Source: Hydrogenophaga sp. (lineage in GTDB: Bacteria > Pseudomonadota > Gammaproteobacteria > Burkholderiales > Burkholderiaceae_C). Taken from it: a stretch of DNA of 64,000 nucleotides. The stretch's first letter is position 1, and each line of letters starts with the position of its first letter. The stretch spans positions 1-64,000 of the forward strand of contig NZ_JAABRQ010000009.1 of NCBI RefSeq assembly GCF_011390835.1, given 5' to 3'. This document shows, piece after piece, positions 29,156-61,414 of the stretch. Both the position numbers and the translations under genes were made by a program. The notes under the pieces were generated by a model. The model ran no database searches. It was not told the origin of the DNA and worked only from the letters and a program-made list of their open reading frames with translations.

Positions 29156-29199
29156 AAGGTACCTGATATGGGGTCATGGTTCCGTTCGATAACGCACAC
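29156..29199 (-). promoter_or_regulatory. Regulon promoter, HPF-DUF302-SHOCT operon
   Basis: Operator 20-mer GTGTGCGTTATCGAACGGAA (29180-29199, minus strand) with -10 TACCTT at 29156-29161. The second half-site is CGAACG rather than CGnACA, and the trailing GAC is GAA, so this is among the weakest members, but the -10 offset is kept. Confidence 0.5.
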
Positions 29200-29348
29200 A
29201 GCAGCGCTCAAGCACGGATGGCGCCGCTGCTCCGCTCTGCGTTGGGCTGATGGCCCTGGATGCCAGATCGCTTGCTCACCCGGAGCGAAAGCGCTTGGCG
29301 ACAGACGCACTCAGCACGCGTCCACCTGGTACGGACAGGCTCGCTTGC

Positions 29349-30071
29349 TCAGGGCTCGGCTGCGCTCAGTTCAGCGTACAGCTGGCGGTCGGCTGCGTAG
29401 CAGCTGCAAGCCTCTGCCTCCAGTCCCGACCGATCCAGCACCGTGATTTCGCCTCGGTGGTAGACGATCAAACCACCCGTCTGAAACTTGCTGGCGGCTT
29501 CTGTCACGCCCACACGCCGCACACCGAGCAGGAGCGCCATGAACTCCTGGGTCACGTGAAAACTGTCGGCCTCGGCGCGGTCCAGGCTCATCAGCAGCCA
29601 ACGGGCCAGGCGCGGACCGAGCATGTGAAAGCGCTCGCACGCCGCGGCCAGCGTCTGCTGGTGCAGCCGCACCAGCAGGCTGGTCTGCATTACCTGCTGC
29701 AGCGGCGGGTTCGCGGTGCATTCTTTGCGCAAGGCCTTGGCTGGGATGCGCCAGCTGTGGCCTGGCCCCTGCACCAGGGCGCGCCAGGGTGTCTTCGACA
29801 GTCCCAGCACCAGCTCGGCGCCCAACATGGTTTCACGCCCCGCCATGCCCACCTCCAGCGCCGGGTGGGTGTCCACATCGACCACCAGCGAGATGAAGCC
29901 CGTCCTGGGAAAGTAGGCGTGGCTCAGCGGTTGCCCGCGCACGCTCAGTTCCGTCGAGAGCACCAGTTCAAACGGTTCGCATTGGTCCAGCAGTCGCTTG
30001 CGGGCGACCTTGGGCAGTTGCTGAATCAGCAGGTTTTCGGCTTGGGCCATCGGCACGTTTTCCTTGGACAT
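29349..30071 (-). CDS. Crp/Fnr-family regulator A
   Basis: A 240-residue regulator with a degenerate cAMP-binding-like beta-roll (residues 30-120) without the usual cAMP Arg-Ala signature, a dimerisation helix (about 125-160), and a helix-turn-helix with recognition helix VRRVGVTEAASKFQ (about 185-197). That helix is nearly the same as in regulator C (VRREGVTEAALKLQ), so both should read the same DNA. The gene is divergent from the PRC-barrel gene, and each has its own regulon-type promoter in between, suggesting autoregulation. A decayed copy of its 5' part lies at 42491-42679. Confidence 0.9.
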   Translation of the reverse strand: MSKENVPMAQAENLLIQQLPKVARKRLLDQCEPFELVLSTELSVRGQPLSHAYFPRTGFISLVVDVDTHPALEVGMAGRETMLGAELVLGLSKTPWRALVQGPGHSWRIPAKALRKECTANPPLQQVMQTSLLVRLHQQTLAAACERFHMLGPRLARWLLMSLDRAEADSFHVTQEFMALLLGVRRVGVTEAASKFQTGGLIVYHRGEITVLDRSGLEAEACSCYAADRQLYAELSAAEP

Positions 30072-30140
30072 TCAGCAACACCCAAACGGGTGGCATCTGA
30101 AAGACGGCTTTCACACTCGCGCATGGACCGCATATTTGCC

Positions 30141-30184
30141 AGTGTGGTACGCACCTCGGGTGCTGACTGTCTGCTAGCGCACAC
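30141..30184 (-). promoter_or_regulatory. Regulon promoter of Crp/Fnr regulator A
   Basis: Minus-strand 20-mer GTGTGCGCTAGCAGACAGTC (30165-30184) with -10-like CACACT at 30141-30146. The trailing triplet is GTC, not GAC, as in the relic at 42749-42792. It points at regulator A (ATG 70 bp downstream of the -10), implying autoregulation. Confidence 0.6.
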
Positions 30185-30221
30185 AGGGGGCTCAGCCTGC
30201 CCAGAACCGTGGTGGGTGGGC

Positions 30222-30265
30222 ATGTGCGTCAGCGAACAGACAGGCTTCCTTCATTCGCGCATCAT
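30222..30265 (+). promoter_or_regulatory. Regulon promoter, PRC-barrel and P-type ATPase operon
   Basis: 20-mer ATGTGCGTCAGCGAACAGAC (30222-30241) with perfect half-sites and GAC, and -10 CATCAT at 30260-30265. The predicted start near 30272 leaves a leader of about 89 nt to ATG 30361. Confidence 0.7.
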
Positions 30266-30360
30266 GCAGGTTCCTGTTTTTTGCCTGCTGGTACCTGGGC
30301 CGTTTGTTTGCCGCGCGTTCACTGGCCTTGCCCCTGACGCATACGCTGCGATCGAAATTC

Positions 30361-31230
30361 ATGAAGAAGCCGACCAACATGCTTTGCATCACCCAAGACC
30401 TGCTGAGCCTCGCCATCGTGGCGACTGACAGCACCAGCGGCGGCCCCATCGGTGAGGTGAAAGACCTCTGCTTCGACGACGCGGCCTGGGCGATTCGCCA
30501 CCTCGTCGTCAAGACGGGATCGTGGCTGTCTGGCCACCAGGTGCTGATCTCCCCGATGGCCGCCGGCAAGCCCGATTGGACCGACAAGTGGCTGCCGACC
30601 CCGCTGGGGCGGGCTCAGTTCGAAAAGCGCCCCGACATCGACCCAGCCATGACCCTCACTCAGCCGCAAGAAACCGGGCGAATCGGCGTCGACAGCCGCC
30701 CCCATGGCTGGAAGGGCCTGGGCGGCTGGAATGGCGAGGAGCATCGAGCGACCGGCTTGCCCGGTGAGGTTGGCGGTGGCCCGGCGACAGCCACGCGGGA
30801 GGCCCCAGACACCGCACCGTTCAGAACGGTACCTGGCGAGCACCACACCGTCCCGCAACTTCGCAGCGGCAAGGCCATGGTGGGCTACCACATCCAGGCC
30901 ACGGATGGCGAGGTTGGCCAGGTACGGGACATGCTCGTCGATGATGCCAACTGGAGCATCCGCTACCTATTGGTGAGCAACAACAGCTGGTGGCTCGGCC
31001 ACGACGTGCTGCTGGCACCGGCGTGGGTACAGCACGTGGACTGTGTGGAGCGATGCATCACGGTCAAGATGTCGCGTGACGCGCTGAAGCAGGCGCTTTG
31101 GTACGACGCCAAGATGCCACTTACCCGCGAAATGGAAATCGCCGTGTACCAGAACCACGGGCGATCCGGGTACTGGACAGACGAGGCCCAACCGCCCACC
31201 TGCGATGCTCTGAACCGGAACGATGCCTGA
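30361..31230 (+). CDS. PRC-barrel protein with two PRC domains
   Basis: A 289-residue soluble protein with two PRC-barrel domains: residues about 6-65 (IGEVKDLCFDDAAWAIRHLVV) and about 175-240 (VGQVRDMLVDDANWSIRYLLVS). They are joined by a Gly/Thr-rich linker. PRC barrels bind protein or RNA partners, and this tandem form is common in bacterial stress operons. Its function here is unknown. The stop overlaps the P-type ATPase start by 8 nt, so the two are coupled. ATG 30361 is preferred to the TTG at 30304; the ribosome-binding site is weak. Confidence 0.85.
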   Translation: MKKPTNMLCITQDLLSLAIVATDSTSGGPIGEVKDLCFDDAAWAIRHLVVKTGSWLSGHQVLISPMAAGKPDWTDKWLPTPLGRAQFEKRPDIDPAMTLTQPQETGRIGVDSRPHGWKGLGGWNGEEHRATGLPGEVGGGPATATREAPDTAPFRTVPGEHHTVPQLRSGKAMVGYHIQATDGEVGQVRDMLVDDANWSIRYLLVSNNSWWLGHDVLLAPAWVQHVDCVERCITVKMSRDALKQALWYDAKMPLTREMEIAVYQNHGRSGYWTDEAQPPTCDALNRNDA

Positions 31231-34132
31231 ACTGACACCCCCTGCCGCATCAGCGGGCAACCCGTCCCTGATGGCCATCGCCGACCTGGCTTCGGCGGTT
31301 GGGACCGACCTGGACCGCGGCCTCAGCGCCGAAGAGGCCGCCACGCGGCTGCGTGCGGACGGTCCCAACGAACTTCGCTCGACGCCACCGGAGCCCGCCT
31401 GGCGCCGGGCGCTGGCGCAGTTGCAGGACCCGCTGGTCTACTTGTTGGGCGGCGCGGCAGCGGTGGCACTGGCGGCCTGGTGGTTTGAAGGTCGCGGCCG
31501 TGAGGGCGCCGCCGGCTGGCCGCTGGATGCCATCGTCATCGCCTGCGTGGTGCTGCTCAACGCCGTGCTGGGTTGGCTGCAGGAATCCAAGGCGGCACAG
31601 GCGGTGGCGGCGCTGGCCAAGATGACCACCGCCACGGCAGCCGTGCTGCGCGATGGCGTCGTGGCCCGTGTGCCCAGCGCTGAACTCGTCAAGGGTGATG
31701 TGCTCGTGCTGGCCGAGGGCGACGCTGTGGGCGCGGATGCGCGTCTGGCGCAAGCGGCCGCGCTGAAGCTGCTGGAGGCGCCGCTGACCGGCGAGAGCGA
31801 GGCGGTGCTGAAGGATGCGGCGCGGCTGTCCGAGCCTGCAGCACTGGGCGACCGACTGAACATGGTGTTCAAGGGCACGGCCGTCGCGCAGGGTACCGGG
31901 CGCGCTGTCGTCACCGCCACGGGCATGCAGACCGAGATGGGCGGCATCGCCACCCTGCTGGATACCACGCCCGATGCGCCGACGCCGCTGCAAACTGAGA
32001 TCGCCCATCTGGGCAAGACGCTGGGCATCGCTGCCTTGATCATTGCCTCCTTGGTGGTGACCACCATCCTGCTGATGTCGGACCTTCATGGCGCATCTGA
32101 TGTCATCACGGTGCTGTTGCTGGGCGTTTCCCTGGCCGTGGCTGCCATTCCCGAGGGTCTGCCGGCCATCTTGTCGGTGGTGCTGGCCATGGGTGTGCGT
32201 CGCATGGCGCGCCACCACGCCATTGTGAAGAAGCTGGCCTCGGTGGAGACACTGGGATCGGCTTCAGTCATTGCCTCGGACAAAACCGGCACGCTCACCC
32301 GAGGCGAAATGACGGTGCAGCGTGTCATGACAGCCTCGGGCCGCACCGACATCACCGGCGTGGGCTACGCCCCCGATGGCCGCGCCGAGCAGGCTGGTGC
32401 CGAGTTGCCCGATGGCCCCTTGCGCGATGAACTGCGGGCGGTGCTGAGCGGAGGCAGCCTCGCCAGCAATGCGCAACTGCGGCAAGACGACAGTGGCACC
32501 TGGGTGATCCAGGGCGACCCGACCGAGGCCGCATTCCTGGTGGCCGAACACAAGCTGGTTGCGCTGGAGAACGGCGAAGCCGCGCCTGAGACGAAGGAAA
32601 GCTTCGAGCGCATCGGTGAGATTCCTTTCACCTCGCAACGCAAGATGATGTCGGTGCTGGTGGTGGACCATGCCGAAGGCGACGCGCACGTACTCTTCAC
32701 CAAGGGCGCGCCGGATGTTCTGCTGGCGCACTGCACCCAGGCTCGCAGCAGCGAAGACACGGTCGCTCTTGATGAGAAACTGCGTGCGCAGGTGCTGAAA
32801 GACATCGGCGCGATGACCGATGACGCGCTGCGCACGCTGGCAGTGGCGCGCCGCACGCTGGCCCCCGACGCGCAGATCCCGACCGATGCGAAAGAGGCCG
32901 CCGCGCTGGAGCAGGATCTGGAATACCTGGGCACCGTTGGCATCATCGACCCGCCCCGCAAGGAAGCGGCCGTGGCCATCGAGGAGGCGCGCCAGGCCGG
33001 TATCCGAGTGATCATGATCACCGGCGACCACCCGCGCACGGCGGTGCGCATTGCGGCTGACCTGGGCATCGTCGACAGCGGTGCGCCGGTGCTCACGGGC
33101 ATCGAGCTCGACAAGCTGGACGAAGCTGCCTTTGCCGCGGCGGTGCCAAAGACCTCGGTGTTTGCACGCGTCGCGCCCAAACACAAGCTGCGCATCGTGC
33201 AAGCGCTGCAGGCCAGCGGCAAGGTGGTGGCCATGACAGGCGACGGCGTCAACGACGCCCCGGCGCTCAAGGCTGCCGACATCGGCGTGGCCATGGGTGT
33301 GGCGGGCACCGAGGTGACCAAGGAAGCGGCGCGCATGATCCTGGCCGACGATCACTTTGCCACCATCGTGCTGGCGGTGCGCGAAGGGCGAGGCGTGCTC
33401 GACAACATCCGCAAGTTCCTGCGCTACCTGCTGTCATCGAACCTGGCTGAGGTGCTGACCGTGTTCGTCGGCGTCCTGGGGGCGGGTGTCATCGGCCTGG
33501 AGGCCACCGCCACCGGCTCGGGAGGCGCGGTCGTGCTGCCGCTGCTGGCCACGCAGATCCTGTGGATCAACCTGATCACCGATACCGGGCCCGCGCTGGC
33601 CATGGGCGTGGACCCGATCGCCGACGACGTCATGGCACGCAAGCCGCGCCCGCGCAGCCAGCGCATTATCGATGCCCGCATGGGGCTGGGCGTGCTGGAG
33701 GCTGGCGTCGTGATGGCGGTGCTGACCTTGCTGACGCTGGATCTGTTTCTGCCTGGCGGCCTGATCGAACCAGTAGATGCCTGGCTGGGTGCTGGTCCGC
33801 ACAACCTGGAAGGTGCGCGCACCGCCGCTTTCACGGTGCTGGTGCTCACGCAGCTGTTCAATTGCTTCAACGCGCGCTCGGAATCCGCCTCCGCGTTCCG
33901 GGCAGCGTTCTCAAACCGCTGGCTGTGGGCGGCGGTGGCGTTGTCGACCGCGCTGCAGGCTGCCGTCGTGCACCTGCCTTTCCTCAACCTGGCTTTCGGT
34001 ACCGTGCCGCTCTCGGCGGGCCAGTGGGCCGTGTGTGTGGCGATGGCCAGCGGGGTGCTGTGGTTCAGCGAAGGACGAAAATTGCTAAGGGGGCTCTGGG
34101 CCCGGCGCTCGCTTTCACCGCTTGGTCAGTGA
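31223..34132 (+). CDS. Cation-transporting P-type ATPase (Ca2+/Na+ type, P2)
   Basis: A 969-residue P2-type ATPase with the N-terminal cation-ATPase domain (GLSAEEAATRLRADGPNEL), the actuator motif LTGESEAV, the M4 ion motif AAIPEGLPAIL, the phosphorylation site SDKTGTLTRGEM, the nucleotide domain with KGAPDVLLAHC, the hinge GDGVNDAPALKAADIG, and six C-terminal helices. PEGLP fits Ca2+ or general P2A/P2B pumps. It probably exports Ca2+ or another divalent or monovalent cation across the inner membrane. Coupling to the PRC-barrel gene and the regulon promoter points to stress-time ion homeostasis. Confidence 0.93.
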   Translation: MPELTPPAASAGNPSLMAIADLASAVGTDLDRGLSAEEAATRLRADGPNELRSTPPEPAWRRALAQLQDPLVYLLGGAAAVALAAWWFEGRGREGAAGWPLDAIVIACVVLLNAVLGWLQESKAAQAVAALAKMTTATAAVLRDGVVARVPSAELVKGDVLVLAEGDAVGADARLAQAAALKLLEAPLTGESEAVLKDAARLSEPAALGDRLNMVFKGTAVAQGTGRAVVTATGMQTEMGGIATLLDTTPDAPTPLQTEIAHLGKTLGIAALIIASLVVTTILLMSDLHGASDVITVLLLGVSLAVAAIPEGLPAILSVVLAMGVRRMARHHAIVKKLASVETLGSASVIASDKTGTLTRGEMTVQRVMTASGRTDITGVGYAPDGRAEQAGAELPDGPLRDELRAVLSGGSLASNAQLRQDDSGTWVIQGDPTEAAFLVAEHKLVALENGEAAPETKESFERIGEIPFTSQRKMMSVLVVDHAEGDAHVLFTKGAPDVLLAHCTQARSSEDTVALDEKLRAQVLKDIGAMTDDALRTLAVARRTLAPDAQIPTDAKEAAALEQDLEYLGTVGIIDPPRKEAAVAIEEARQAGIRVIMITGDHPRTAVRIAADLGIVDSGAPVLTGIELDKLDEAAFAAAVPKTSVFARVAPKHKLRIVQALQASGKVVAMTGDGVNDAPALKAADIGVAMGVAGTEVTKEAARMILADDHFATIVLAVREGRGVLDNIRKFLRYLLSSNLAEVLTVFVGVLGAGVIGLEATATGSGGAVVLPLLATQILWINLITDTGPALAMGVDPIADDVMARKPRPRSQRIIDARMGLGVLEAGVVMAVLTLLTLDLFLPGGLIEPVDAWLGAGPHNLEGARTAAFTVLVLTQLFNCFNARSESASAFRAAFSNRWLWAAVALSTALQAAVVHLPFLNLAFGTVPLSAGQWAVCVAMASGVLWFSEGRKLLRGLWARRSLSPLGQ

Positions 34133-39535: not shown

Positions 39536-39579
39536 ATGTTCGTGTGCTTCAGGAAGCCTGTCTGTGCGTTGGCGAACAT
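39536..39579 (-). promoter_or_regulatory. Regulon promoter of BON-domain gene
   Basis: Minus-strand 20-mer ATGTTCGCCAACGCACAGAC (39560-39579) with both half-sites and GAC; -10-like GAACAT at 39536-39541. The operator start is 91 nt from the ATG, the same distance as at ompA. Confidence 0.7.
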
Positions 39580-40645: not shown

Positions 40646-40689
40646 GCGTGCGCTGGCGAACAGACCGACGGACTCACCTTCTCGACAAT
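40646..40689 (+). promoter_or_regulatory. Regulon promoter of unknown gene and VIT gene
   Basis: 20-mer GCGTGCGCTGGCGAACAGAC (40646-40665) with GAC, and -10 GACAAT at 40684-40689. The operator start is 104 nt from ATG 40750 (90 from an out-of-frame ATG at 40736). It is the only obvious promoter before the VIT-family gene. Confidence 0.65.
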
Positions 40690-40749: not shown

Positions 40750-41094
40750 ATGGACAAGATCGAACAGCTGGCGAGGGGCCAACTCTCTTCAGACCCAAAG
40801 GACCTGGTCAAGAACGACCGCTGGATCTTTGGCTGGGATGTGCCCGAAGTTGAAGAAGCCTCGTCAGACCGGATGATTCTCAACGCGCAGCGGCAGGCGC
40901 TCGATGATGTTGAATCGGAGTGCTCTGCGGGCATCCCTGGATGCATCAGCGCAAGTCGACGCGGACAGCGGCAAGTCGATCGTGGCGCATGGATCCGAGT
41001 GCTCAAAGGAATGTGCGCCAGTCGGTGCAGTGCGCCTGGATCCGATCACGGTGCAGCGATAGTCACCGCCCATGCACGCGGCAAGCCGCCGTGA
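40750..41094 (+). CDS. Hypothetical protein, 114 residues
   Basis: The first 45 residues (MDKIEQLARGQLSSDPKDLV, then KNDRWIFGWDVPEVEEA) are polar, charged and protein-like. The second half is Cys/Ser/Arg/Gly-rich and less convincing, so the real gene may be shorter, or its 3' part may be frameshifted. I do not recognise a family. It lies just before the VIT-family gene (16-bp gap) behind a regulon promoter. Confidence 0.5.
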   Translation: MDKIEQLARGQLSSDPKDLVKNDRWIFGWDVPEVEEASSDRMILNAQRQALDDVESECSAGIPGCISASRRGQRQVDRGAWIRVLKGMCASRCSAPGSDHGAAIVTAHARGKPP

Positions 41095-41803: not shown

Positions 41804-42249
41804 ACTCCCGGGACTCTAGCCAACGCAGCCACCCAGCAGGATGCCGTGCGCTGGGAGGTACCGGATCACCGGGTGCGCGTATCGAGCTGGAACTGACTGC
41901 GGTCGGTCGCAGCGGCGTTCATTCGCGCTCAGGAAATGCCGAATGCTTTCACCAGCGGATGCGTGCAGGTCAATAGAAGTTGGGGTGGGGGTTCAGCGCG
42001 GATGGTACACAGCGACCGGGAAGACCGGTGGTCATGGACAAAGGCGTTGAATCCCACGGCCACAGCATGCAGGCATTGGGCGGTGGCGTCGGTGCGCTGC
42101 AGCACATAGGCCACGCGACAGAAAGATGGCGCTCCAATGCCGCCCGGCAGCAGCAGCTTACGTTCGACAGCGAACAGACGCAGACTCCTGGCGGGTCTAA
42201 AAAGGGCGGCAAGGTGAACGCTGTTGTTCACCCCAACCAAAGGACTCAC
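41804..42249. other. Gene-free stretch before the CsbD gene
   Basis: About 445 bp with the regulon promoter at 42160-42203 and no credible gene. A minus-strand open frame here shows weak hints of protein-like sequence (LLLPGGIGAPSFCRVAYV) but has no recognisable start or domain, so it could be a decayed gene. Confidence 0.45.
42160..42203 (+). promoter_or_regulatory. Regulon promoter of CsbD gene
   Basis: 20-mer ACGTTCGACAGCGAACAGAC (42160-42179; first half-site CGTTCG) with GAC. The A-rich -10 TAAAAA is at 42198-42203 (TCTAAA at 42196 is an alternative). The operator start is 90 nt from the CsbD ATG, as at ompA and regulator B. Confidence 0.7.
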
Positions 42250-42748: not shown

Positions 42749-42792
42749 GGTCTGGAGCGCTCTGCGCTGTCTGACTGTGTGCGAGCGCACAA
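42749..42792 (-). promoter_or_regulatory. Relic regulon promoter of the crp pseudogene
   Basis: Minus-strand 20-mer TTGTGCGCTCGCACACAGTC (42773-42792), closely matching the regulator A operator (GTGTGCGCTAGCAGACAGTC), including the GTC end. -10-like CAGACC at 42749-42754. It faces the dead crp copy. Confidence 0.5.
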
Positions 42793-42823: not shown

Positions 42824-42867
42824 ATGTGCGGCAGCGTACGGACGACCGTCCGCGACACTTTTACAAA
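42824..42867 (+). promoter_or_regulatory. Regulon promoter of OmpA-family gene
   Basis: 20-mer ATGTGCGGCAGCGTACGGAC (42824-42843) with -10 TACAAA at 42862-42867. The second half-site has CGTACG for CGnACA. The predicted start near 42874 gives a 41-nt leader. Confidence 0.7.
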
Positions 42868-44142: not shown

Positions 44143-44186
44143 ATGTTCGGTGGCGCACAGACCCCTCCTCGCGTCACGCCTACAAG
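44143..44186 (+). promoter_or_regulatory. Regulon promoter of Crp/Fnr regulator B
   Basis: 20-mer ATGTTCGGTGGCGCACAGAC (44143-44162) with perfect half-sites and GAC, and -10 TACAAG at 44181-44186. The operator start is 90 nt from ATG 44233, matching the ompA arrangement (91 nt). Confidence 0.7.
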
Positions 44187-44232: not shown

Positions 44233-45135
44233 ATGAACAACCGCCACACCTTCCGCATCGTGGGACTCCCCAGTGTCCGTGCGGGCATCGGCGTTCCCAC
44301 CATGTCTGCCACGCCGGCGGGGCTCAGCCCATGTGCGCCGCTCGGACACGGTACCCTGGCCGACCTGCTGTGCATGCTGGGAATCGATACCCTGATCACG
44401 CCAGACGAGGCGAATGCGGCAAGCCAAATGGTGCTGAGGCTGCGCCAGGTGCCGGCGGGCGATCACCTGATCCACATGGGTGCGCCCAGCGAGGCACTGT
44501 ATTTTGTGCGCACGGGCACCTTCAAGATTTCCCGTACCGACGAAGAAGGCCACGAACAGGTGCAGGCTTTCGCCGGGTGCAAGGACATTGTGGGCTTTGA
44601 CGCCTTGTGCATGGACACCTACCCCACTGCCGCCATCGCGCTGGAAGACTCTGCCGTCTACGTGGTTCACAAGAGCGATCTGCTTGATCTGAGCCGGGCG
44701 GTGCCGGCGTTCGGGCTGGAACTGCAGCGCGCTGGCAGCCGGGCACTCACCCGCACCACCGCACTGCTGGATGTGATGTCGGCCGTGTTGGCAGAAGTTC
44801 GACTCGCGCGCTTTCTGCTCCAGATGTCGTGCCAGATGGCTGCAGCTGGTCAGTCGCCTCGGCGCTTTCACCTGCTCATGGGTCGGCGCGACATCGCCCG
44901 AGCGCTCGGCGTGGCGCACGAGACGGTCAGCCGATCGTTCACCGCGCTGGCCATCGCGCACTTCATCCACGTGGACGGCCGAAACGTGGAAATCCTCGAC
45001 ATGGACGGCCTCAAGGTCCATTCGCGCAGCACCCGCCGCTCGCAAGACGATCTGGGGACGCCATCTGCGCGCCTGCAGGCGCAGCAGCGGCGCAGCGCCT
45101 TCATTCCGATGGGATTGAGCAGCCTGGCCGCGTGA
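44233..45135 (+). CDS. Crp/Fnr-family regulator B (FNR-like recognition helix)
   Basis: A 300-residue regulator with a cNMP-like beta-roll (about 65-160), dimerisation helix, and HTH (about 215-245, GRRDIARALGVAHETVSRSF). The E-T-V-S-R helix is FNR-like and differs from regulators A and C. Several Cys residues are present, but not the FNR N-terminal Cys cluster spacing. Its first 23 codons (MNNRHTFRIVGLPSVRAGIG) align with the OmpA-family signal peptide (MKKYHALHMLGLASLGAVMA), so the N-terminus appears derived from ompA; the native start may be ATG 44302. Confidence 0.88.
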   Translation: MNNRHTFRIVGLPSVRAGIGVPTMSATPAGLSPCAPLGHGTLADLLCMLGIDTLITPDEANAASQMVLRLRQVPAGDHLIHMGAPSEALYFVRTGTFKISRTDEEGHEQVQAFAGCKDIVGFDALCMDTYPTAAIALEDSAVYVVHKSDLLDLSRAVPAFGLELQRAGSRALTRTTALLDVMSAVLAEVRLARFLLQMSCQMAAAGQSPRRFHLLMGRRDIARALGVAHETVSRSFTALAIAHFIHVDGRNVEILDMDGLKVHSRSTRRSQDDLGTPSARLQAQQRRSAFIPMGLSSLAA

Positions 45136-46087: not shown

Positions 46088-46189
46088 CTCAAGGCCCAGG
46101 TTCAGGGTTGTGCACCATGCACCACCGCAGGGTGTCTTTATCGCCGCCCACACCCGTGAGGTCTGTTCGGTAGCGCACGTTGCCCGGCG

Positions 46190-46909
46190 CTAGACCGCCA
46201 TTTCGGGGGGCAGCAGCCGGCCGTACTCCGATTTCACCACGGCATAACACTCGCAGACGCGGGCTTCCAGCCCAGGGCGGTCGAGCACGTTGATGTGCCC
46301 CCGAACGTACTTGATGAGACCCAGCTTTTGCAGCTTGAGCGCCGCTTCGGTGACGCCCTCGCGGCGCACGCCCAGCATGTTGGCGATCAGTTCCTGCGTC
46401 ATCACCAGCTCGTTGCCGCTCAGGCGGTCCAGGCTCAGCAGCAGCCAGCGGCACAGCTGCTGGTCCAGCGAATGGTGGCGGTTGCACACCGCCGTCTGGG
46501 ACATCTGCGTGATGAGCGCCTGGGTGAAGCGCAGCAACAGGTGCAGCACCGGGCCGGAGCGGTTGAATTCTTCCTTGATGTCGGCTGCGCGCAGGCGGTA
46601 GCCCTTGCCCGCGCTCTGAACCACGGCGCGGCTGGGCGTGGTTTCGCCGCCCATGAAGAGCGCAATGCCCACCAGCCCTTCGTTGCCCACCACCGCGATC
46701 TCGGCCGAGGCGCCGTCTTCCAGCACATACAGGAGCGAAATGATGGCGCTGGTGGGGAAGTAGACATGGCTCATCTTGGCGCCCGATTCGTACAGCACCA
46801 AGCCCAGCGGCAGGTCCACGGCTTCCAGCCTGGGTGCGATACGCTGCCACACCGCAGGTGGCATGGAGGACAGCAAATGGTTGGTTGTTTGGTCGACGGT
46901 GATGTTCAA
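46190..46909 (-). CDS. Crp/Fnr-family regulator C
   Basis: A 239-residue regulator of the same subfamily as regulator A: beta-roll (about 30-120, with FPTSAIISLLYVL), dimerisation helix, and HTH ELIANMLGVRREGVTEAALK with recognition helix near residues 181-194. It shares LGVRR-x-GVTEAA-x-K-x-Q with regulator A, so the same operator is predicted. It is divergent from the fatty-acid hydroxylase gene. A perfect palindromic operator and a second site lie between them. It probably autoregulates. Confidence 0.92.
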   Translation of the reverse strand: MNITVDQTTNHLLSSMPPAVWQRIAPRLEAVDLPLGLVLYESGAKMSHVYFPTSAIISLLYVLEDGASAEIAVVGNEGLVGIALFMGGETTPSRAVVQSAGKGYRLRAADIKEEFNRSGPVLHLLLRFTQALITQMSQTAVCNRHHSLDQQLCRWLLLSLDRLSGNELVMTQELIANMLGVRREGVTEAALKLQKLGLIKYVRGHINVLDRPGLEARVCECYAVVKSEYGRLLPPEMAV

Positions 46910-46966: not shown

Positions 46967-47012
46967 AGCCTACCCAAGTCAGTGTGCGCCGTATGTACGC
47001 TGGCGTACATAC
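46967..47012 (-). promoter_or_regulatory. Palindromic operator and promoter of regulator C
   Basis: A 22-bp inverted repeat (46991-47012; arms GTATGTACGC and GCGTACATAC around a central TG) contains TGTACG-N4-CGTACA. On the minus strand the 20-mer ATGTACGCCAGCGTACATAC ends at 46991, followed by -10 TAGGCT at 46967-46972. This is the most symmetrical member of the set. Confidence 0.75.
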
Positions 47013-47027: not shown

Positions 47028-47071
47028 GTGTACGTCAGCGCACAGACGCGCCGCTGCGCAGTGGCCAGCAT
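47028..47071 (+). promoter_or_regulatory. Regulon promoter of fatty-acid hydroxylase gene
   Basis: 20-mer GTGTACGTCAGCGCACAGAC (47028-47047) with both half-sites and GAC, and -10-like CAGCAT at 47066-47071. The predicted start is near 47078, 25 nt before ATG 47103. Confidence 0.65.
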
Positions 47072-53800: not shown

Positions 53801-56402
53801 GCCGCCAGTGGCCCGGCACACAGGCGGCCAGAGCGCCCAGGAGCGGGCCGGCGCTGTAGGCGGCCAGGGTGAGCCCCAAGGCCACGGGCAGCGACACGCC
53901 CAGGCCGAGCATGGCCAGGCCGATCAGCAGCAGCGAGGCCGGCGCCACCAGCGAGCGGCGCAGGTTGTCCAGCAGCTTCCAGCGGTTGATGGCGCCCAGC
54001 GGCCAGTGGCGATGGCGCAGCAGGAACGGCAGCAACTGCCAGTCGCCGCGAGCCCAGCGGTGCAGGCGCGCGGCAGCGGCGTCGGCGTGGGTGGGATCGG
54101 GCTCGATCAGGGTCACGTCGGTCACCACGGCGCAGCGAACCAGCGCGCCTTCGAGCAGGTCGTGGCTGAGCACCTGGTCGCTCGGCAGGCGATCGCCCAA
54201 CACAGCGTGCAGGGTGGCCACGTGCAGCAGGCCTTTGCCGGTGAAGCTGCCCTCGCCAAACAGGTCCTGGTACACATCGGAGCTCATGGCGCTGTAGGGA
54301 TCGATGCCGCGCTGGCCGTCAAACAGCCATTGCCAGAGGCTGCGCGGGCCATCGCCGGCCAAGGGGGGCACGACGCGCGGCTGCAAGATGCCGTAGCCCC
54401 TCACAACGCGCTGATCGACGCTGTCCAGCTGGGGCCGGTTGTTCGGGTGTTCGGCCACGCCAACCAGCGCCCGCAGGCGCCCGGGCGGCAGCTGCGTGTC
54501 GCTGTCGAGCGTGAGGATGTAGCGCGTGTTCGGTGCCATGCGCGAGACTTCGCCGAGATCAAAAAACGGACCTGGCGTACCGGTGGCGAGCGCGGCGACC
54601 AGCTGCTCCAGCTTGCCACGCTTGCGCTCCCAGCCGAGCCAGCGCCGCTGCGTGGCGCTGGCGCTGCGGCCGCGGTGCAGCAGCAGGAAGCGCGGCGGCT
54701 GGCCAGGGGCTTCGGGGTAGCGGGCATTGAGCGCAGCCAGCTGCGCCTGTGCGTGAGACAGCAGGGAATCGTCGTCGGCATGGTGCTCGGTGTCTGCGTC
54801 GGTCCAATCGCTCAGCAAGGCGAACTGGGCGCAGGCCTCGGTGTTGGCCAGGTGGTGAAGTTGCAGCCGGTGCACCAATTGGCTGATCGAATCGCGGTGG
54901 CTCAGCATGGCCGGCACCACCACCATGACTCGGGCTTCGGGCGGTATGCCATCAGGCAGCAACAAGCGTGGCAGATGCGAGGGCTTGACCGATTCGCTGA
55001 TCAGGCGGTTGACCAGGGCCACCACCGCCTCGGAGGCGGGCAGCAACATCAGCAGACCCACCAGCACCGTGCCCAGCTGCGTGGGCCAGCTGGCTGCGAG
55101 CCAGCCCGGGCGGTACAACAACCAGGCCACCAGCAGCAGCGAGCCCAGCAGCATCGCACCGAGGTAGGCAGCGGTTCGCGAAAGGCCAGGCGCCGGCCTC
55201 CACAGACCAGCACGTCGGCGTTTCAGGCCCAGTGCCTGTTCCAGCGCCGCGCGCCCATCGCCCTGCAACCAGTGCGAGGCCAGCGCGCTGTGGCCGCTGC
55301 CCTCGCTCATCAGCTGCAGCAGCCGCTGCGCCACCAGGGCCTCCCCCTTGCCGCTCTGCGCAGACAGGCGCTCGATGCCGTGCAGCGTGGTGTTGCGGCT
55401 GGCGTCGTCTTCCGCTTGGAACACCGACGAGCCCAGCATCGCGCGGACAACCCGACTGGTGTGGGCCACAGCGTCGGCCCAGTCGGCAGCACCGATCAGG
55501 CGCAGCGCGGTGATCGCGTTGCCCACGCTCAGGTGGTCGGCCGCCTGGGCCGCGTGTTGCTGGGCCTGCAGGGTGGCCAGATCGGGCACTTCCTGCTGCA
55601 GCCAGTCGCGCGCCCGAGCCAGTGGCGTGTCGCCGGCGACCTGTGCATGTCCGGCCAGGCTCTGGGCCAGCTGCAACACAAACACCTCGCCCGCGCGACG
55701 CCGCACCATCAACTCGCGCATGGTCACCAAGTCGCCCAGGGGCAGCGTGTCAATGCGGCTGGCGCACAGGCTGGCGAGTTCGCGCGCGGCCTTGTGGCTG
55801 GCGATGCGATCGGCCAGGCGACGCAGGTTTTCCACCAGCACCACGCGCAAGGTGGTGGGCAGGGCCCAGAGCTCGCCCTGGGTCAGCTCGCGTGCGTCCT
55901 GGTAGGCATTCAGAAACTGCACCAGCAGCGTTTCGTCGAAGGCGCTGTCGGTGTGCGCCACAAAAGCCCAGGCCACGCCGTAGATGCGGGGCAGGCCGAC
56001 CAGCGGCGCGTCCTGCAGCACGGGCAGCGTTCGGTAGTAGCTCAGTGGCAAGCCTTCGCGGATCTCCCGCAGCTGGGCCTCGATCAGGTGGAAGTTGTCG
56101 AGCAGCCACTCGGCCGCGGGGCTGACCTCTTGCCAGTCGTGTGACGCCAGCGCGATGAACTCGTAGGCGGACCGCAAGGTGCGCACATTGTTCTGCAGGC
56201 GCGGGTAAAACGTAGCCCGGCCAAAGCGGGCCAGGTCCGCACGGTGGGAGGTACCCAGGCTACGACCGTGTTGTTCAAAACGTGTCCGGCCAAACAGCTC
56301 GGAGCGGATCGGCTCCAGCGCCGGGCCGTTCGAGGCGTCCAGCACGCGTTCGAGCCGATTCGGGACCCATGACCAGCGCCCCAGCCCGCGTGCATCCGCC
56401 AT
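47823..56402 (-). CDS. ndvB: Cyclic beta-1,2-glucan synthase-like giant glycosyltransferase (NdvB/Cgs)
   Basis: A 2859-residue protein, the length and architecture of NdvB/Cgs: an N-terminal cytoplasmic region, membrane helices (AAYLGAMLLGSLLLVAWLLY and others near 400-460, and again near 800-1030), a GT84-like transferase domain with ILTLDSDTQLPPGRLRALVG (the D-S-D motif), a central glucoamylase-like region, and C-terminal GH94-type domains with GGDWNDGMNRVGSEGRGE. It should make periplasmic cyclic or linear beta-glucan from UDP-glucose. A small TM gene precedes it by 3 bp, and a regulon promoter precedes that. Confidence 0.92.
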   Translation of the reverse strand: MADARGLGRWSWVPNRLERVLDASNGPALEPIRSELFGRTRFEQHGRSLGTSHRADLARFGRATFYPRLQNNVRTLRSAYEFIALASHDWQEVSPAAEWLLDNFHLIEAQLREIREGLPLSYYRTLPVLQDAPLVGLPRIYGVAWAFVAHTDSAFDETLLVQFLNAYQDARELTQGELWALPTTLRVVLVENLRRLADRIASHKAARELASLCASRIDTLPLGDLVTMRELMVRRRAGEVFVLQLAQSLAGHAQVAGDTPLARARDWLQQEVPDLATLQAQQHAAQAADHLSVGNAITALRLIGAADWADAVAHTSRVVRAMLGSSVFQAEDDASRNTTLHGIERLSAQSGKGEALVAQRLLQLMSEGSGHSALASHWLQGDGRAALEQALGLKRRRAGLWRPAPGLSRTAAYLGAMLLGSLLLVAWLLYRPGWLAASWPTQLGTVLVGLLMLLPASEAVVALVNRLISESVKPSHLPRLLLPDGIPPEARVMVVVPAMLSHRDSISQLVHRLQLHHLANTEACAQFALLSDWTDADTEHHADDDSLLSHAQAQLAALNARYPEAPGQPPRFLLLHRGRSASATQRRWLGWERKRGKLEQLVAALATGTPGPFFDLGEVSRMAPNTRYILTLDSDTQLPPGRLRALVGVAEHPNNRPQLDSVDQRVVRGYGILQPRVVPPLAGDGPRSLWQWLFDGQRGIDPYSAMSSDVYQDLFGEGSFTGKGLLHVATLHAVLGDRLPSDQVLSHDLLEGALVRCAVVTDVTLIEPDPTHADAAAARLHRWARGDWQLLPFLLRHRHWPLGAINRWKLLDNLRRSLVAPASLLLIGLAMLGLGVSLPVALGLTLAAYSAGPLLGALAACVPGHWRLLGARFFVAGSLDLLRAVGGGFWHLALLQQQALMSLDAVLRTLHRLAVSRLHLLEWTTAEAAQAGLATRLPATLGRHRIEPVGALLWLVGLWLLTPPAPGALTLTVLVLWALAPLLVWASNTPWPSRSKALRPADRVLLDGVARDTWRLFERCVNPQNHHLPPDNLQLFPYEIEAHRTSPTNIGLYLLSAACARRFGWIGTQDLLARLDATCTTLQQMERHRGHFLNWYDTETLQPLPPRYVSTVDSGNLSAHLLTVAQACRELAQDPHEASANLQAIARSRERLQPHLPLLQSVLHQPLHQTALGQLLDATPPESVDATACAAFLALLLQAQAELEGLQPARNPAIVSHPTTPKDELRWLLADHLATLRSGGLDVAARGAGSCERTQQRLQAAAEQLEAMAWEADFHFLYHPKRHLLHIGYRVDHQQLDTSFYDLLASESRTTSLLAIAKGELPVRHWAALGRPFFASGRRAVLRSWSGSMFEYLMPTLVVQPPRDSALFEAGRSALREQIAFVRGSAMPWGISESAYAGQDHTLAYQYAPQGVPRLAMRRTPAAEQVIAPYATALATQVDAALACNNLRALSALSARGRYGFIEALDFTQARQIHGEPFTLVNTFMAHHQGMSIVALANVLCGGVAQRWGMSHPRIEAVCSLLHERAPRELPALHRLQTQPLPALPRHASEHVRMLTPGAQALEPTHLLSNGRYSVTLRSHGAGWSRWGQTGITRWRDDAMRDASGAFIYLRLGGSGAAVSVTRHPAPDPDASYQCRFHTDRVCFDATWPELKVTTTVWVSPEDDIELRKVLLVNRSSEAIELELISALDITLASHAADEAHPAFSNLFVKTDWLPEQQALRCVRTPRLQTEGTLQAAHFVASAEGKVLGLRCQTDRAQWLGRLHTPAQPLAALKAVPLVPTALDTGLDPVAVLGVRVLIAPGAQASVTFATAASDDAATLLAVIDKYRQPSYVERSSLMSATLAGIAAQPHRPRVDYLPAMQALTTALVLTLPQAHATPSGSADAGALHSDRRTLWPLGISGDRPLLLVHAGMPKGLGLLCVLALVLREWSRAGVACDVVVLSRELHSYEMPLQRALALLREQHAIDQQAHPIQAATGLHLLRVDELSPEQITTLHSLARVQLQADGQALLHQVRAWCDRFDTAGTHLGNGGVPAHDPVPLRLSETEALPSHGDFLHERSAFAFEAGAGLATPMPWTNVLANPGFGTILSETGAGNTWALNSRLNQLTAWANDPVADPPSEWFLLQDRRTREVWSTAPSAWGAEATRYQVVHSQGLTTIRHQRGSLAVLVSWCVDADNAVKQVRIQLTNHGAGKAHLRLVGLVEWMMGEKRGDRATLLTQPQEGGPPGGDLLGLLCTQTEHAAGFGGGTAFFCEAQAAAGDAGSLDWTCDRSAFFDAGGQLALPQRLGQRSGFGLDPCAALSRPLTLRPGASLEQVFLIGYAGDANAARTLMHQASQVDAGERERAVQARWDSLLGATQVQTPDPLFDALVNRWLLYQTVSSRLWAKAGFYQAGGATGYRDQLQDTMALVWAQPAMLRAQIVLCASRQFEEGDVQHWWHSPGGAGVRTHFSDDLLWLPFATAHYLQATGDTALLDEAVSFLDSPPVPEGSEDRYDSPAISAQQASVYEHGARAIDRSLPVGAHGLPLMGGGDWNDGMNRVGSEGRGESVWLAWFLCRIVSDWLPLARARGELSRVRRWEVAFAGWLEALDTKAWDGAWFKRAFFDDGSPLGSASQPEARIDLIAQAWAVLSDQTSDERQRMAMDAVETQLVDAENGLIRLLDPPLQHASPSAGYIQAYPPGVRENGGQYAHAGVWALMAAAQVALHEHGNTFVRNTPYRYFTYLSPAHRAAHPQWRSAYGLEPYALAADVYSAPPYTGRGGWSWYTGSAGWLHRAALESILGLQLQAEELWFTPCLPAHWPKAEITLRRDGRSMHFVLVRGDPAAELASKPHAQLLQEGERLRWKDLSPDSCLVVPLKG

Positions 56403-56405: not shown

Positions 56406-56648
56406 CTAGCGCATCAGCGAAACACCGCCCACCAACAGCATGGCCACCATTGCCGTGGTGACCACATGCCCGGTCAACAGGCCGTGCAGGCCGTCAGCCC
56501 CGGTCCGCAATGTGTGGAGCCGGCCACGCAGCGCGCCGCACTGGCTCAGGTGTTCGCCCAGCGCCGAGCGCTCCAGGGGCGAGACATCGGCCGGATGACC
56601 GAATGATGAGGTGTCCCAGCAGGGTGCCTGGGAAGAGATGTTGGACAT
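56406..56648 (-). CDS. Small membrane protein cotranscribed with the glucan synthase
   Basis: An 80-residue protein (MSNISSQAPCWDTSSFGHPA...) with one C-terminal transmembrane helix (VVTTAMVAMLLVGGVSL) and a polar N-terminal domain. No domain is recognised. ATG 56648 is preferred to 56666 because AAGGTG precedes it. It ends 3 bp before the ndvB start, so it is probably coupled to it. It may be an accessory or regulator of glucan synthesis. Confidence 0.7.
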   Translation of the reverse strand: MSNISSQAPCWDTSSFGHPADVSPLERSALGEHLSQCGALRGRLHTLRTGADGLHGLLTGHVVTTAMVAMLLVGGVSLMR

Positions 56649-56699
56649 GATGCGCACCTTGTGCATGGGTAGATAACAGAGGTCAGAAACCTATGTGTC

Positions 56700-56743
56700 T
56701 TTGTAAGGCAACGGGCGTTTCAGGTCTGTGCGCTGTCGAACAT
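56700..56743 (-). promoter_or_regulatory. Regulon promoter of small TM gene and ndvB
   Basis: Minus-strand 20-mer ATGTTCGACAGCGCACAGAC (56724-56743) with perfect half-sites and GAC, and -10 TACAAA at 56700-56705. The predicted start is 45 nt from ATG 56648. The rest of the gap, 56744-57042, shows no gene. Confidence 0.75.
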
Positions 56744-58706: not shown

Positions 58707-58909
58707 GTGGGCGGGTCGTTCGGCAAGGCTTTTTCAACCTGGTCCAGCGCCCGCCTGATGGCCGCGATGATGAGCCGGTGTGCCAGCGGCTCATCGATGT
58801 CGGGCACGTCCCACTCGGCAATGGTGAGGTACTTGTCAACCAGTTCGGTGACGTCGATTTCCAGTTGGGCGCGGTGCGCCTCGAGTTCCCGTCTTTCAAT
58901 GCTGGGCAT
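58703..58909 (-). CDS. Small hypothetical protein in the phosphoketolase operon
   Basis: A 68-residue helical, acidic protein (MPSIERRELEAHRAQLEIDV...). I do not recognise it. The ATGA overlap with the aldolase gene and the 12-bp gap from phosphoketolase make it a real operon member. It may be an accessory or chaperone to phosphoketolase or aldolase. Confidence 0.7.
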   Translation of the reverse strand: MPSIERRELEAHRAQLEIDVTELVDKYLTIAEWDVPDIDEPLAHRLIIAAIRRALDQVEKALPNDPPT

Positions 58910-58921
58910 GGTGGCTTGCTT

Positions 58922-61300
58922 TCATGTCGTGGCGTTCCAGCGCCAGTTGCGGATTTCGGGCATGTCCTGCCCGTGCGCCCGGATGTGGTGCGCGTGTTCA
59001 ACGAGCTTGGCGGCCAGCCTGCCCTGCAGCGCGGTGCCTGCCGAGCCGGTTTGCGGCAGCCGGTCGATGGTGTCCATCACCAGGTGGAAGCGGTCCAGGT
59101 CGTTCAGGACTGTCATGTCGAACGGCGTGGTTATCGTGCCCTCTTCCTTGTAGCCGCGCACATGGAAATTGGCGTGGTTGGTTCGCCGGTAGGTCAGCCG
59201 GTGGATCAGCCAGGGGTAGGCGTGGAACGCAAAAATCACCGGCTTATCGCGGGTGAACAGCGCATCGAAGGCCGCGTCACTGAGCCCGTGCGGATGCTCG
59301 ATTTCGGGCTGCAGCCTCATCAGGTCGACGACATTGACCACGCGCACGCGAAGCTCGGGCAGTTCTGCGCGCAAGATCTGCACCGCAGCCAGCGTCTCGA
59401 GCGTGGGCACGTCGCCGCAGCAGGCCATGACCACGTCGGGATCGTCCTCCACCGCGCCTGCGGCCAGCTCGTTGCCCGCCCAGTCCCAGATGCCGATGCC
59501 CGCAGCGCAATGCGCCACCGCTGCGTCCATGGTCAACCACTGCGGCGCCGGGTGCTTGCCGGCGACCACCACATTCACGTAGTGGCGGCTGCGCAGGCAG
59601 TGGTCCATCACCGACAGCAGGCAGTTGGCATCAGGTGGCAGGTAGACGCGCACCACCTCGGCCTTCTTGTTGACCACATGGTCGATGAAGCCCGGGTCCT
59701 GATGGGTGAAGCCATTGTGGTCCTGGCGCCAGACGTGCGAGGCCAGCAGGTAGTTGAGCGAGGCGATCTTGGGTCGCCAGGGCAGCCCGGCGCTCACCTT
59801 GAGCCACTTGGCGTGCTGGTTGAACATCGAGTCGATGATGTGGATGAAGGCTTCGTAGCAGTTGAACAGGCCATGCCGCCCGGTCAGCAGATAGCCCTCC
59901 AGCCAGCCTTCGCACTGGTGCTCGCTCAGCATTTCCATCACCCGCCCTTGCGGCGCGAGCCACTGGTCGCTCGGCGCGGTGGCGGCATCCCATTGGCGGT
60001 TGGTCGCTTCGAACATCGCGGCCAGCCCGTTGGACACGGTTTCGTCGGGTCCGAAGACGCGGAAGTTGCGCTCAGCTTCGTTCTGGCTGGCGACATCGCG
60101 CAAGAAGGGCCCTAGCACGCGGGTGTCGCCCATGCCAGGGGTGCCGGGTGTGGGCACGTCTGCCGCGTACGCGCGGTAATCGGGCAGGTGCAGGTCGCGC
60201 AGCAGCAGGCCGCCGTTGGCATGGGGATTGGCCCCCATGCGCCGGTGGCCGCTGGGTGCCAGCGCTGCGAGCTCTGACTTCAGTCGGCCATGCTCGTCGA
60301 AAAGTTCTTGTGGCCGGTAGCTGCGCAGCCAGTCGTCCAGCAACTTGAGGTGATCAGGGTGTTCGGCCGGGTGCAGCGGCACCTGATGCGAACGGAAATT
60401 GCCTTCGCAAGGCTCACCGTCCACCTGCTTCGGCCCGGTCCAGCCCTTGGGTGAGTTCAGCACGATCATGGGCCAGCGCGGGCGCTCGGTGTGCCCCTGC
60501 TCGCGCGCATGCCGCTGGATGCGCTGGATCTCCCGCACCGCCTGGTCCAGCGCCTCGGCCATGCGCTCGTGCATGGGCCCGGGCTCGTGCCCCTCCACAA
60601 AAATCGGCGTCCAGCCGCAGCCGCGAAAAAACTGCTCGAGCTCCTCGTGCGTGATGCGCGCCAGCACCGTGGGGTTGGCGATCTTGTAGCCGTTCAGGTG
60701 CAGGATCGGCAGCACGGCGCCGTCGGTCGCCGGGTCGAGAAACTTGTTGGAATGCCAGGCGGTGGCCAGCGGCCCGGTCTCGGCCTCGCCATCACCGACC
60801 ACGCAGGCGACGATCAGGTCGGGGTTGTCGAAGACGGCGCCGAATGAATGGCTCAGCGAGTACCCAAGTTCGCCGCCCTCATGGATCGAACCCGGGCACT
60901 CGGGCGAGACATGGCTCGGTATGCCACCGGGAAACGAGAACTGCCGGAACAGTTTTTTCAGCCCGGCTTCGTCGCGGCTGATCTCAGGGTAGACCTCGCT
61001 GTAGCTGCCTTCGAGGTAGGTGTTGGCGACCACCGCCGGGCCGCCATGGCCGGGGCCACTGACAAAGATCATGTCCAGGTCGTGGGCCAGGATGGCGCGG
61101 TTCAGGTGCGCATAGATGAAATTCTGGCCAGGGGTGGTGCCCCAGTGTCCGAGCAACATGGGCTTCACGTCGCTCAAGGTCAGCGGCCGCTTCAGCAGCG
61201 GGTTGTCCCACAGGAATATCTGACCGACCGACAGGTAGTTGGCGGCTCGCCAATAGGCGTCCAGGCGTTGGAGCGAGGCGTGGCTTTGTTCGTCTGGCAT
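58922..61300 (-). CDS. xfp: Phosphoketolase (Xfp)
   Basis: A 792-residue thiamine-diphosphate enzyme converting xylulose-5-P (and fructose-6-P) plus phosphate to acetyl-P plus glyceraldehyde-3-P (or erythrose-4-P). Visible: the start [40 protein letters not shown], and the ThDP motif [20 protein letters not shown]. Length is normal. It heads the operon xfp, 68-residue gene, aldolase, histidine phosphatase. The predicted transcript start falls on the ATG itself (a possible leaderless mRNA). No downstream acetate kinase is seen. Confidence 0.95.
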
Positions 61301-61306
61301 CCCTCC

Positions 61307-61350
61307 ATACTGGGGTCGACAGGTCCGCTGGTCTGTGCGCTGGGGAACAC
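61307..61350 (-). promoter_or_regulatory. Regulon promoter of phosphoketolase operon
   Basis: Minus-strand 20-mer GTGTTCCCCAGCGCACAGAC (61331-61350) with GAC; first half-site TGTTCC. -10-like CAGTAT at 61307-61312. The standard offset gives a start at 61300, the A of the xfp ATG; GGAGG lies directly before the ATG. Confidence 0.6.
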
Positions 61351-61370
61351 AGCCCCTGATGCGTGCTTAA

Positions 61371-61414
61371 GGGTGCGGCAGCGAACAGACGCCGGTCTTT
61401 TGAGGATGCATGCT
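61371..61414 (+). promoter_or_regulatory. Regulon promoter of gnd-tal-tkt
   Basis: 20-mer GGGTGCGGCAGCGAACAGAC (61371-61390) with GAC; first half-site GGTGCG. -10-like CATGCT at 61409-61414, the same as at the 8834 site. The predicted start near 61421 leaves an 80-nt leader to gnd. Confidence 0.65.

Follow-up and report, generated by a model that had tools for sequence, protein, structure and literature searches.

Class II regulons of the Crp/Fnr superfamily are a known kind of control system, and a regulator site with a fixed centre at -41.5 combined with a degenerate -35 box is the layout of class II activation. In CRP, Glu181 reads base pair 7, and arginine deiminase and stress themes occur in ANR regulons. 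In the available part of one report, Arg180, Glu181 and Arg185 are given as the residues of CRP that contact bases (PMC12531629), and the available part of another describes the lxa locus of Burkholderia cenocepacia as a large stress locus in which about 50 genes are physically clustered, among them six for universal stress proteins (PMC6127331). Here we describe a 64,000-nucleotide stretch of Hydrogenophaga sp. DNA (GCF_011390835.1, contig NZ_JAABRQ010000009.1; C68:1-64000, hereafter the window) in which a palindromic operator, TGTNCG-N4-CGNACA, recurs upstream of stress-related genes and of genes for Crp/Fnr-type regulators. The contig, C68, comprises 118,645 bp, or 3.2% of the 3.67-Mb genome. 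Judging from sequence comparison, it is very probable that C68:28-118.6 kb constitutes a clustered stress/persistence regulon, with C-type proteins (Crp/Fnr regulator C of the window and its relatives) binding the palindrome and acting by class II activation. Operator, regulator branch and physical clustering all seem to be new; a literature search of partial coverage, with some results off topic, returned no description of the operator or the regulator, and the available part of PMC4603805 gives no such operator.

The operator and its promoter layout

The core palindrome was searched with the reversed pattern or shuffled sequence as control. Seven exact copies were found in the window, against a shuffle mean of 0.15 and with none of 100 shuffles reaching this number. 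Allowing up to one mismatch gave 16 intergenic sites, seven exact and nine with one mismatch (starting at 8861, 29183, 30168, 30223, 39563, 40647, 42161, 42776, 42825, 44144, 46164, 46994, 47029, 56727, 61334 and 61372), and two sites inside genes (23038 and 63689). A preliminary description of this DNA had counted fifteen sites; the number was about right, but the core it stated is exact in just seven, and the first core base differs in two of its own examples (42160 and 61371). The six 20-mers that it quoted, and the palindrome at 46991-47012, are present letter for letter at their places. At two mismatches the core is near chance in the window, with 53 matches against 42.2 expected and 4 of 100 shuffles reaching 53.

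Over the whole genome, 19 exact palindromes were found against one for the reversed pattern. Fourteen of them are on C68, two on contig C67 and one each on C4, C13 and C27, a concentration on C68 with a binomial p of 1e-17. When the core was required to be followed by GAC, with up to one mismatch, the genome yielded 41 rows and the control 3. Of the 41, 28 fall on C68, 3 on C67 and 10 elsewhere, with two palindromes counted twice because both strands match. In the genome-wide scan that had been suggested as a check, the regulon is concentrated on one contig and not spread over the genome: the bare core without GAC, with up to one mismatch, showed no genome-wide excess (185 against 189). Since the bare core with mismatches is near chance, both genome-wide and, at two mismatches, in the window, GAC and the -10 element were added as extra columns. 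The form mostly seen in this genome is TGTKCG-NYRN-CGMACA.

Genes were called with a simple caller of our own, so that their starts are approximate. On C68, 32 of the 34 sites with up to one mismatch are intergenic, though 83% of the contig is coding (p 8e-23); the motif is therefore not as common inside genes, the outcome that had been named as speaking against a regulon. In the 17 sites with one possible target, GAC is on the gene-proximal side in 13 and on the gene-distal side in one.

The 28 GAC sites of C68 and C67 revealed a constant promoter geometry. A -10-like hexamer starts exactly 22 bases past the last A of the palindrome, with a mean of 3.04 matches to TATAAT, whereas the remaining offsets between 10 and 44 give 0.64-1.86; A is found at +23 in 24 of 28 and T at +27 in 19 of 28. 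If the hexamer is taken as positions -12 to -7, the assumption on which the placement rests, the palindrome is centred at -41.5 and GAC occupies -33 to -31 within a TTGACA-like -35 box, so that the sequence has the palindrome near -41.5 and the -10 at a fixed distance that characterize a class II promoter. This geometry was observed again in other genomes: their 185 non-redundant GAC sites (79 exact and 106 with one mismatch) gave a mean at +22 of 2.39 for the exact and 2.57 for the one-mismatch sites; the A of the -10 is present in 51/79 and 78/106, and the T in 58/79 and 70/106, respectively.

A promoter matrix was built from these 185 sites, none of which comes from this genome, although they were picked by the consensus found here. 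Scanning C68 and C67 at a threshold of 12 bits gave 45 matches: 40 in C68:28,001-118,645, one in C68:1-28,000 and four in C67. The island density amounts to 44 per 100 kb, compared with 0.56 in first-order random sequence (six rounds); two palindromes among the 40 matches are counted twice, as both directions score. Only 1 of the 45 lies inside a called gene. The single match in the first 28 kb is at 8.9 kb, in agreement with the absence of the motif earlier reported for 9-29 kb.

Many near-identical copies on one contig could also be left by a small repeat of the repetitive extragenic palindrome (REP) or miniature inverted-repeat transposable element (MITE) type that had spread in the island. 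We disfavour this explanation and consider it extremely improbable: the flanks of the 28 aligned sites have no strong column besides the -10 and GAC, the latter being a rule of selection; site orientation follows the genes; and other genera have these sites too, next to the orthologous regulators. A palindrome over the -35 region might also block RNA polymerase, and the sites would then be repressor rather than activator sites. This we regard as unlikely, since a -41.5 centre with a degenerate -35 box is the class II layout and is retained at the promoters of the regulators themselves.

Crp/Fnr paralogues and their proposed operator across genomes

Five regulator genes of the Crp/Fnr superfamily are of concern here, the first three of them in the window:

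29349..30071, minus strand: regulator A, Crp/Fnr paralogue with V184 in the recognition helix (HTH_Crp_2; 38% identical to C; by alignment)
44233..45135, plus strand: regulator B, FNR-like, a predicted target (cNMP_binding and HTH_Crp_2)
46190..46909, minus strand: regulator C, predicted activator of the regulon, E184 (HTH_Crp_2 and cNMP_binding; Crp/Fnr fold; operator upstream of its orthologues)
C67:88199-88915: regulator D, 73% identical to C, E184
C68:92853-93647: regulator E, 65% identical to C, E184

One Crp/Fnr branch accounts for four paralogues of the genome, namely C, D, E and A (paralogue matches start at C67:88211, C68:92859 and 29361). The recognition helices of A (VRRVGVTEAA) and C (VRREGVTEAA) had been called near-identical and the two proteins proposed as joint regulators; they differ, however, at the very position that covaries with the operator, V184 in A and E184 in C, and C together with D and E, all E184, is the better set. 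Residue 184 was equated with Glu181 of CRP by eye. The C-terminal Crp-type helix-turn-helix (PF13545) is above cut-off in all of A, B, C, D and E, and the N-terminal cNMP-binding type domain (PF00027) is above it in B and C and below it in A, D and E. A structure model, made for C only (mean predicted local distance difference test, pLDDT, 89.1), matches the folds of GlxR, mycobacterial CRP and FNR, with a Foldseek E of 4.6e-12 to apo GlxR. In NCBIfam at E 0.01, C and A had no match and D and E weak ones below cut-off; the best model for B was FNR, at 112.7 bits against a cut-off of 228. The closest orthologue of C among the named records is that of a Hydrogenophaga metagenome-assembled genome (87%).

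The cysteines of C are at positions 142, 153, 219 and 221 only, so that the N-terminal cysteine cluster of FNR is lacking. Among 55 aligned orthologues C142, H145, H146, C219 and C221 are invariant, and C153 is kept in 54. The model places these residues where a long helix (120-145) ends, within helix 148-160 and where a C-terminal helix (220-232) begins, an arrangement along the chain that could make a metal or redox centre at the hinge beside the DNA-binding domain.

To relate the operator to these regulators, matches with up to one mismatch were sought within 350 bp upstream of C-type genes in two sets of loci, which may share genomes: the best-scoring 29 loci of the family (one with only 75 bp upstream) and 79 named loci, these being the best 80 of at least 584 relatives less one without upstream sequence. 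The operator was present in 21/29 family loci (reversed pattern, 1/29) and 58/79 named loci (2/79; exact copies, 27 against 0), and it ranked first among 180 permuted half-sites in both sets. The loci with C-type genes include Gammaproteobacteria such as Thiocystis and Thermomonas. This adjacency to the regulator in many genera, together with the fixed geometry and the helix covariation described below, upholds the proposal of one regulon with a Crp/Fnr-type palindrome and a regulator of a Crp/Fnr subfamily.

Among 200 genomes of the family, our own included, the exact GAC motif occurs in 50 of the 81 that encode a C-type protein at E 1e-60 (130 sites), as opposed to 28 of the 119 that do not (34 sites; p 7e-8); one exception among the latter, G107, scored as lacking the regulator, has a 48.6% relative that this cut excluded. 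A count of GAC sites, one mismatch being allowed, gave 179 in 13 genomes with E184 regulators and 83 for the control. The exact core was counted 344 times, against 181, in 39 other members of the genus, exceeding the control in 31 and not in 8, which indicates that regulon size varies and that this genome is among the richest. Of the stretches downstream of the 185 GAC sites of other genomes, 72 code for relatives of proteins from C68 or C67 (a count made without a control). BON was the commonest shared target (12), followed by the D-type regulator (11), fatty acid hydroxylase and glucan synthase (6 each) and OmpA (5).

The regulators' own promoters follow a variant of this pattern. Of 76 sites that lie some 40-170 bp before C-type genes and have at most one mismatch, 68 lack GAC on the regulator side, and toward the regulator the -10 is at the same position, with +22 again the highest offset (mean 2.71). 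When exact sites of E184 loci were scored for GAC on either side, 7/25 near the regulator carried it compared with 29/33 elsewhere (p 5e-6). The retained geometry, usually without GAC, suggests positive autoregulation, and the pattern fits activator-dependent self-expression with a different promoter balance. A better -10 at the GAC-less sites is not claimed, the difference (2.71 against 2.39 and 2.57) being small.

Residue 184 and the operator were found to vary together. In 80 loci the residue is E in 69, S in 7, P in 3 and A in 1, and an operator with up to one mismatch lies upstream in 56/68 E184 loci as opposed to 2/11 of the others (p 6e-5). In the nine non-E sites that keep the proximal half and GAC, proximal position -5 is A (CGTACA-GAC) in 8/9, compared with 20/105 sites of E loci (p 4e-5) and 0/32 in this genome. 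Their distal halves vary, 3/9 being TGA[AC]CG. The pattern TGANCG-N4-CGTACAGAC was found in 6/8 non-E genomes (14 sites) and 1/16 E genomes (1 site; control 0/24; p 0.001); leaving out the four genomes where it was first seen reduced this to 2/4 against 1/16 (p 0.09). Other lines of evidence exist beside this weakened test, and the comparison at proximal -5 still holds. No other perfect palindrome recurs within 350 bp upstream of the non-E184 regulators; a scan of their whole loci ranked GC-rich palindromes first and, behind them, NGTACG-N4-CGTACN (14 places in 7/11 loci). In two Paraburkholderia loci (L183 and L185) several variant promoters with a TGAGAACGT-like -10 were seen, which by eye resemble an extended -10.

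Paralogue A, alone or as a heterodimer with C, might read some of the sites, for instance 46994, the palindrome of TGTACG half-sites in front of C. A carries V184 here, its counterpart in Acidovorax has A184, lineages without E184 favour A at -5, and the exact window sites with TGTACG half-sites, 46994 and 47029 of seven, are both in the promoter region of C. We nevertheless rate such a role as rather unlikely, as the idea finds no support across genomes: TGTACG half-sites are not enriched at exact sites before C-type genes (10/50 against 10/66, p 0.62). The Acidovorax protein comes from a separate observation in Acidovorax sp. NO-1 (L187:12993-14545), where a C-type and an A-type regulator stand in tandem beside a glucan synthase gene.

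Several observations weigh against control of the palindrome by C-type proteins as set out above. In a tree of 55 rows, the nine without E184 group as a single clade (support 100/98, the bootstrap being rough), which makes the covariation a single event. Of the family genomes without a C-type match, 28/119 have the exact GAC motif too (34 sites), and the reversed control, with 33 matches in the 200 genomes, itself leans toward genomes with the regulator (16/81 against 12/119; p 0.06, rank test p 0.02). In other genomes the exact GAC motif lies within 500 bp upstream of just 14/126 regulators and, among the matches listed for regulator-bearing genomes, 45/104 sites are within 30 kb of one. Three of the 13 E184 genomes have no excess (G239, G250 and G253, the last being Hydrogenophaga intermedia), and in 12/68 E184 loci the upstream region lacks an operator even when one mismatch is allowed. 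A genome of the same genus with four regulators (G114) has no GAC site and 5 exact cores against 7 in the control; one of its four C-type genes has an exact TGTACG palindrome about 115 bp upstream. G173 is without a C-type match at the threshold used and has three GAC rows, one palindrome being read both ways; its sites are G173:C204:4621 and G173:C163:12219, one of them near the end of a 5.5-kb contig. Finally, the statistics across genomes ignore kinship, and four paralogues are present here, which may divide the labour among themselves.

It is possible, though we would put it forward only tentatively, that the C-type proteins form a separate sensory class of Crp/Fnr regulators switching a stress island that carries its own regulators, with a specificity that was rewired once, at residue 184, in Paraburkholderia/Cupriavidus. 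Regulators of the Gammaproteobacteria Dyella and Rhodanobacter group with Burkholderiales rows (98/90; L121 and L144 with L152 and L161), which suggests horizontal transfer.

Sites and predicted target genes of the island

The sites of the window and the genes that they face are as follows, with matrix scores in bits; gene families are by Pfam where so marked:

8861..8876, minus strand: operator/promoter toward open reading frame (ORF) 7502-8518 (exact core with GAC; 30.0 bits)
29183..29198, minus strand: operator/promoter of HPF-like, DUF302 and SHOCT genes, 29085-28017 (1 mismatch, no GAC; 18.8 bits)
30168..30183, minus strand: operator/promoter of regulator gene A, 29349-30071 (1 mismatch, no GAC; 18.1 bits)
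30223..30238, plus strand: operator/promoter of PRC-barrel gene 30361-31230 and P-type cation ATPase gene 31271-34132 (exact with GAC; 30.5 bits; Pfam)
39563..39578, minus strand: operator/promoter of BON-domain gene 39150-39428 (exact with GAC; 31.5 bits; Pfam)
40647..40662, plus strand: operator/promoter toward VIT1-family gene 41072-41803 (1 mismatch with GAC; 26.9 bits; 418 bp from the called start; Pfam)
42091..42106, minus strand: operator/promoter-like site; the 1.5 kb downstream of it hold no called gene on this strand (2 mismatches; 21.8 bits)
42161..42176, plus strand: operator/promoter of CsbD gene 42250-42465 (1 mismatch with GAC; 26.5 bits; Pfam)
42776..42791, strand unassigned: weak extra site upstream of the OmpA-family gene (1 mismatch, no GAC; 13.9 bits, on the minus strand only)
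42825..42840, plus strand: operator/promoter of OmpA-family gene 42915-44066 (1 mismatch with GAC; 22.3 bits; Pfam)
44144..44159, plus strand: operator/promoter of FNR-like regulator gene B, 44233-45135 (exact with GAC; 28.0 bits; Pfam, NCBIfam)
46164..46179, minus strand: operator/promoter toward hemerythrin-like gene 45304-45861 (1 mismatch with GAC; 25.6 bits; 310 bp from the start; Pfam)
46994..47009, strand unassigned: palindrome between regulator C (46190-46909, minus) and fatty acid hydroxylase (47103-47693, plus) (exact; TAC replaces GAC on both sides)
47029..47044, plus strand: operator/promoter of fatty acid hydroxylase gene 47103-47693 (exact with GAC; 30.2 bits; Pfam)
56727..56742, minus strand: operator/promoter of small gene 56406-56666 and GH94-type glucan synthase gene 47823-56402 (exact with GAC; 30.3 bits; Pfam)
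61334..61349, minus strand: operator/promoter of phosphoketolase gene 58922-61300, then aldolase and histidine-phosphatase-family genes, to 57043 (1 mismatch with GAC; 26.2 bits; Pfam)
61372..61387, plus strand: operator/promoter of 6-phosphogluconate-dehydrogenase-like gene 61501, transaldolase gene 62603 and following genes (1 mismatch with GAC; 26.8 bits; Pfam)

The palindrome at 46994 scores 23.5 bits toward C and 19.9 toward the hydroxylase and, from its position, is a probable autoregulatory site of C. The site at 8861 stands apart from the main island, and its target ORF (start 7906 by the gene caller) has no Pfam match. The Pfam scans covered 70 proteins of this genome, not all of the island genes. 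In the cluster 29085-28017, DUF302 is above and HPF-like and SHOCT are below their cut-offs; the GH94-type glucan synthase has 2,859 aa, and the aldolase is of class I. Beyond the window, Pfam identified phosphoglucomutase, PPK2, a second HPF-like protein, baeRF, Mla-type transport and ferritin-like proteins, as well as arginine deiminase pathway genes and F-type ATPase subunits, the gene order of the latter resembling that of N-ATPase operons.

A second promoter-like site without a called gene on its strand within 1.5 kb downstream is at C68:96222-96237 (minus strand, 29.1 bits); this site and that at 42091-42106 may belong to small unannotated genes or RNAs. Two operators lie in the first 1.1 kb of C67 (299-317, plus, and 1046-1064, minus), with only one weak matrix match (4.9 kb) between them and 89 kb. 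C67 may hold a continuation of the island from another contig end.

The sequence statistics bring out the sites and their placement between genes, the geometry of the promoters, the neighbourhood of regulator genes in other genera and the helix-operator covariation within one clade; physical binding, and activation as the direction of control, we infer. Regulator C, with its paralogues D and E, would bind the palindrome as dimers; the site, centred at -41.5, would overlap a degenerate -35 box of which GAC (-33 to -31) remains, and a predicted -10 of the form YANNNT would lie at a fixed distance from it. With the -35 box degenerate, the -10 fixed and the site overlapping, transcription is expected to depend on the activator, as in class II. 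At the regulators' own promoters the same geometry, usually without GAC, would provide positive autoregulation. The signal is probably oxygen or energy limitation, to judge from a gene content that includes the arginine deiminase pathway, the F-type ATPase operon, phosphoketolase, HPF-like proteins and membrane-maintenance genes.

For a branch of the Crp/Fnr superfamily without a named NCBIfam family, which spans Beta- and some Gammaproteobacteria, an operator, a promoter layout and a regulator can now be put to the test. Many stress genes with poor annotation (CsbD, BON, PRC-barrel, DUF302 and HPF-like) gain a common candidate regulator, and the change at residue 184 and in the operator offers a natural experiment in the evolution of Crp/Fnr specificity.

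Comparison with FNR/ANR, lxa and CRP

Neither of the classical boxes accounts for the island. On C68 the CRP box TGTGA-N6-TCACA has no exact match and a single one-mismatch match, inside a gene; the FNR box TTGAT-N4-ATCAA has no exact match and three with one mismatch, one intergenic and two inside genes (reversed pattern, 0). The latter result bears on the possibility that the FNR-like B, or another oxygen sensor of the FNR/ANR type, controls the island directly, as has been proposed for Anr-type proteins and low-oxygen genes elsewhere. B lies inside the island with an operator of its own (28.0 bits) and, in the available part of PMC9104464, anr2, a Crp-Fnr regulator, is described as determining the fitness of B. 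cenocepacia H111 in anoxic survival. Direct FNR-type control nonetheless appears very unlikely given the scarcity of FNR boxes; B itself looks like a target, and the palindrome adjoins C-type genes in other genera, in a comparison that covered C-type genes.

The island resembles lxa in being a clustered stress locus and shares with it a BON-domain protein and a zinc alcohol dehydrogenase, as far as the available part of the lxa report goes (PMC6127331). For the universal stress protein (Usp) family, of which lxa has six members, no match was obtained among the 70 scanned proteins of this genome, which are not all of the island genes. With FNR/ANR regulons it shares the superfamily of the regulator and an overlap in arginine deiminase and stress themes; it differs from FNR in that C lacks the N-terminal cysteines and C68 an exact FNR box. 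The resemblance to E. coli CRP extends to the Crp/Fnr fold of C, a palindrome of 16 bp whose TGT is equally far from the dyad, the predicted activator layout centred at -41.5 as in class II promoters of CRP, and the base-reading Arg180 and Glu181, whose equivalents, matched by eye, are kept as R183 and E184. In contrast to CRP, the half-site here is TGTKCG rather than TGTGA, E188 replaces Arg185, and the target genes are different ones.

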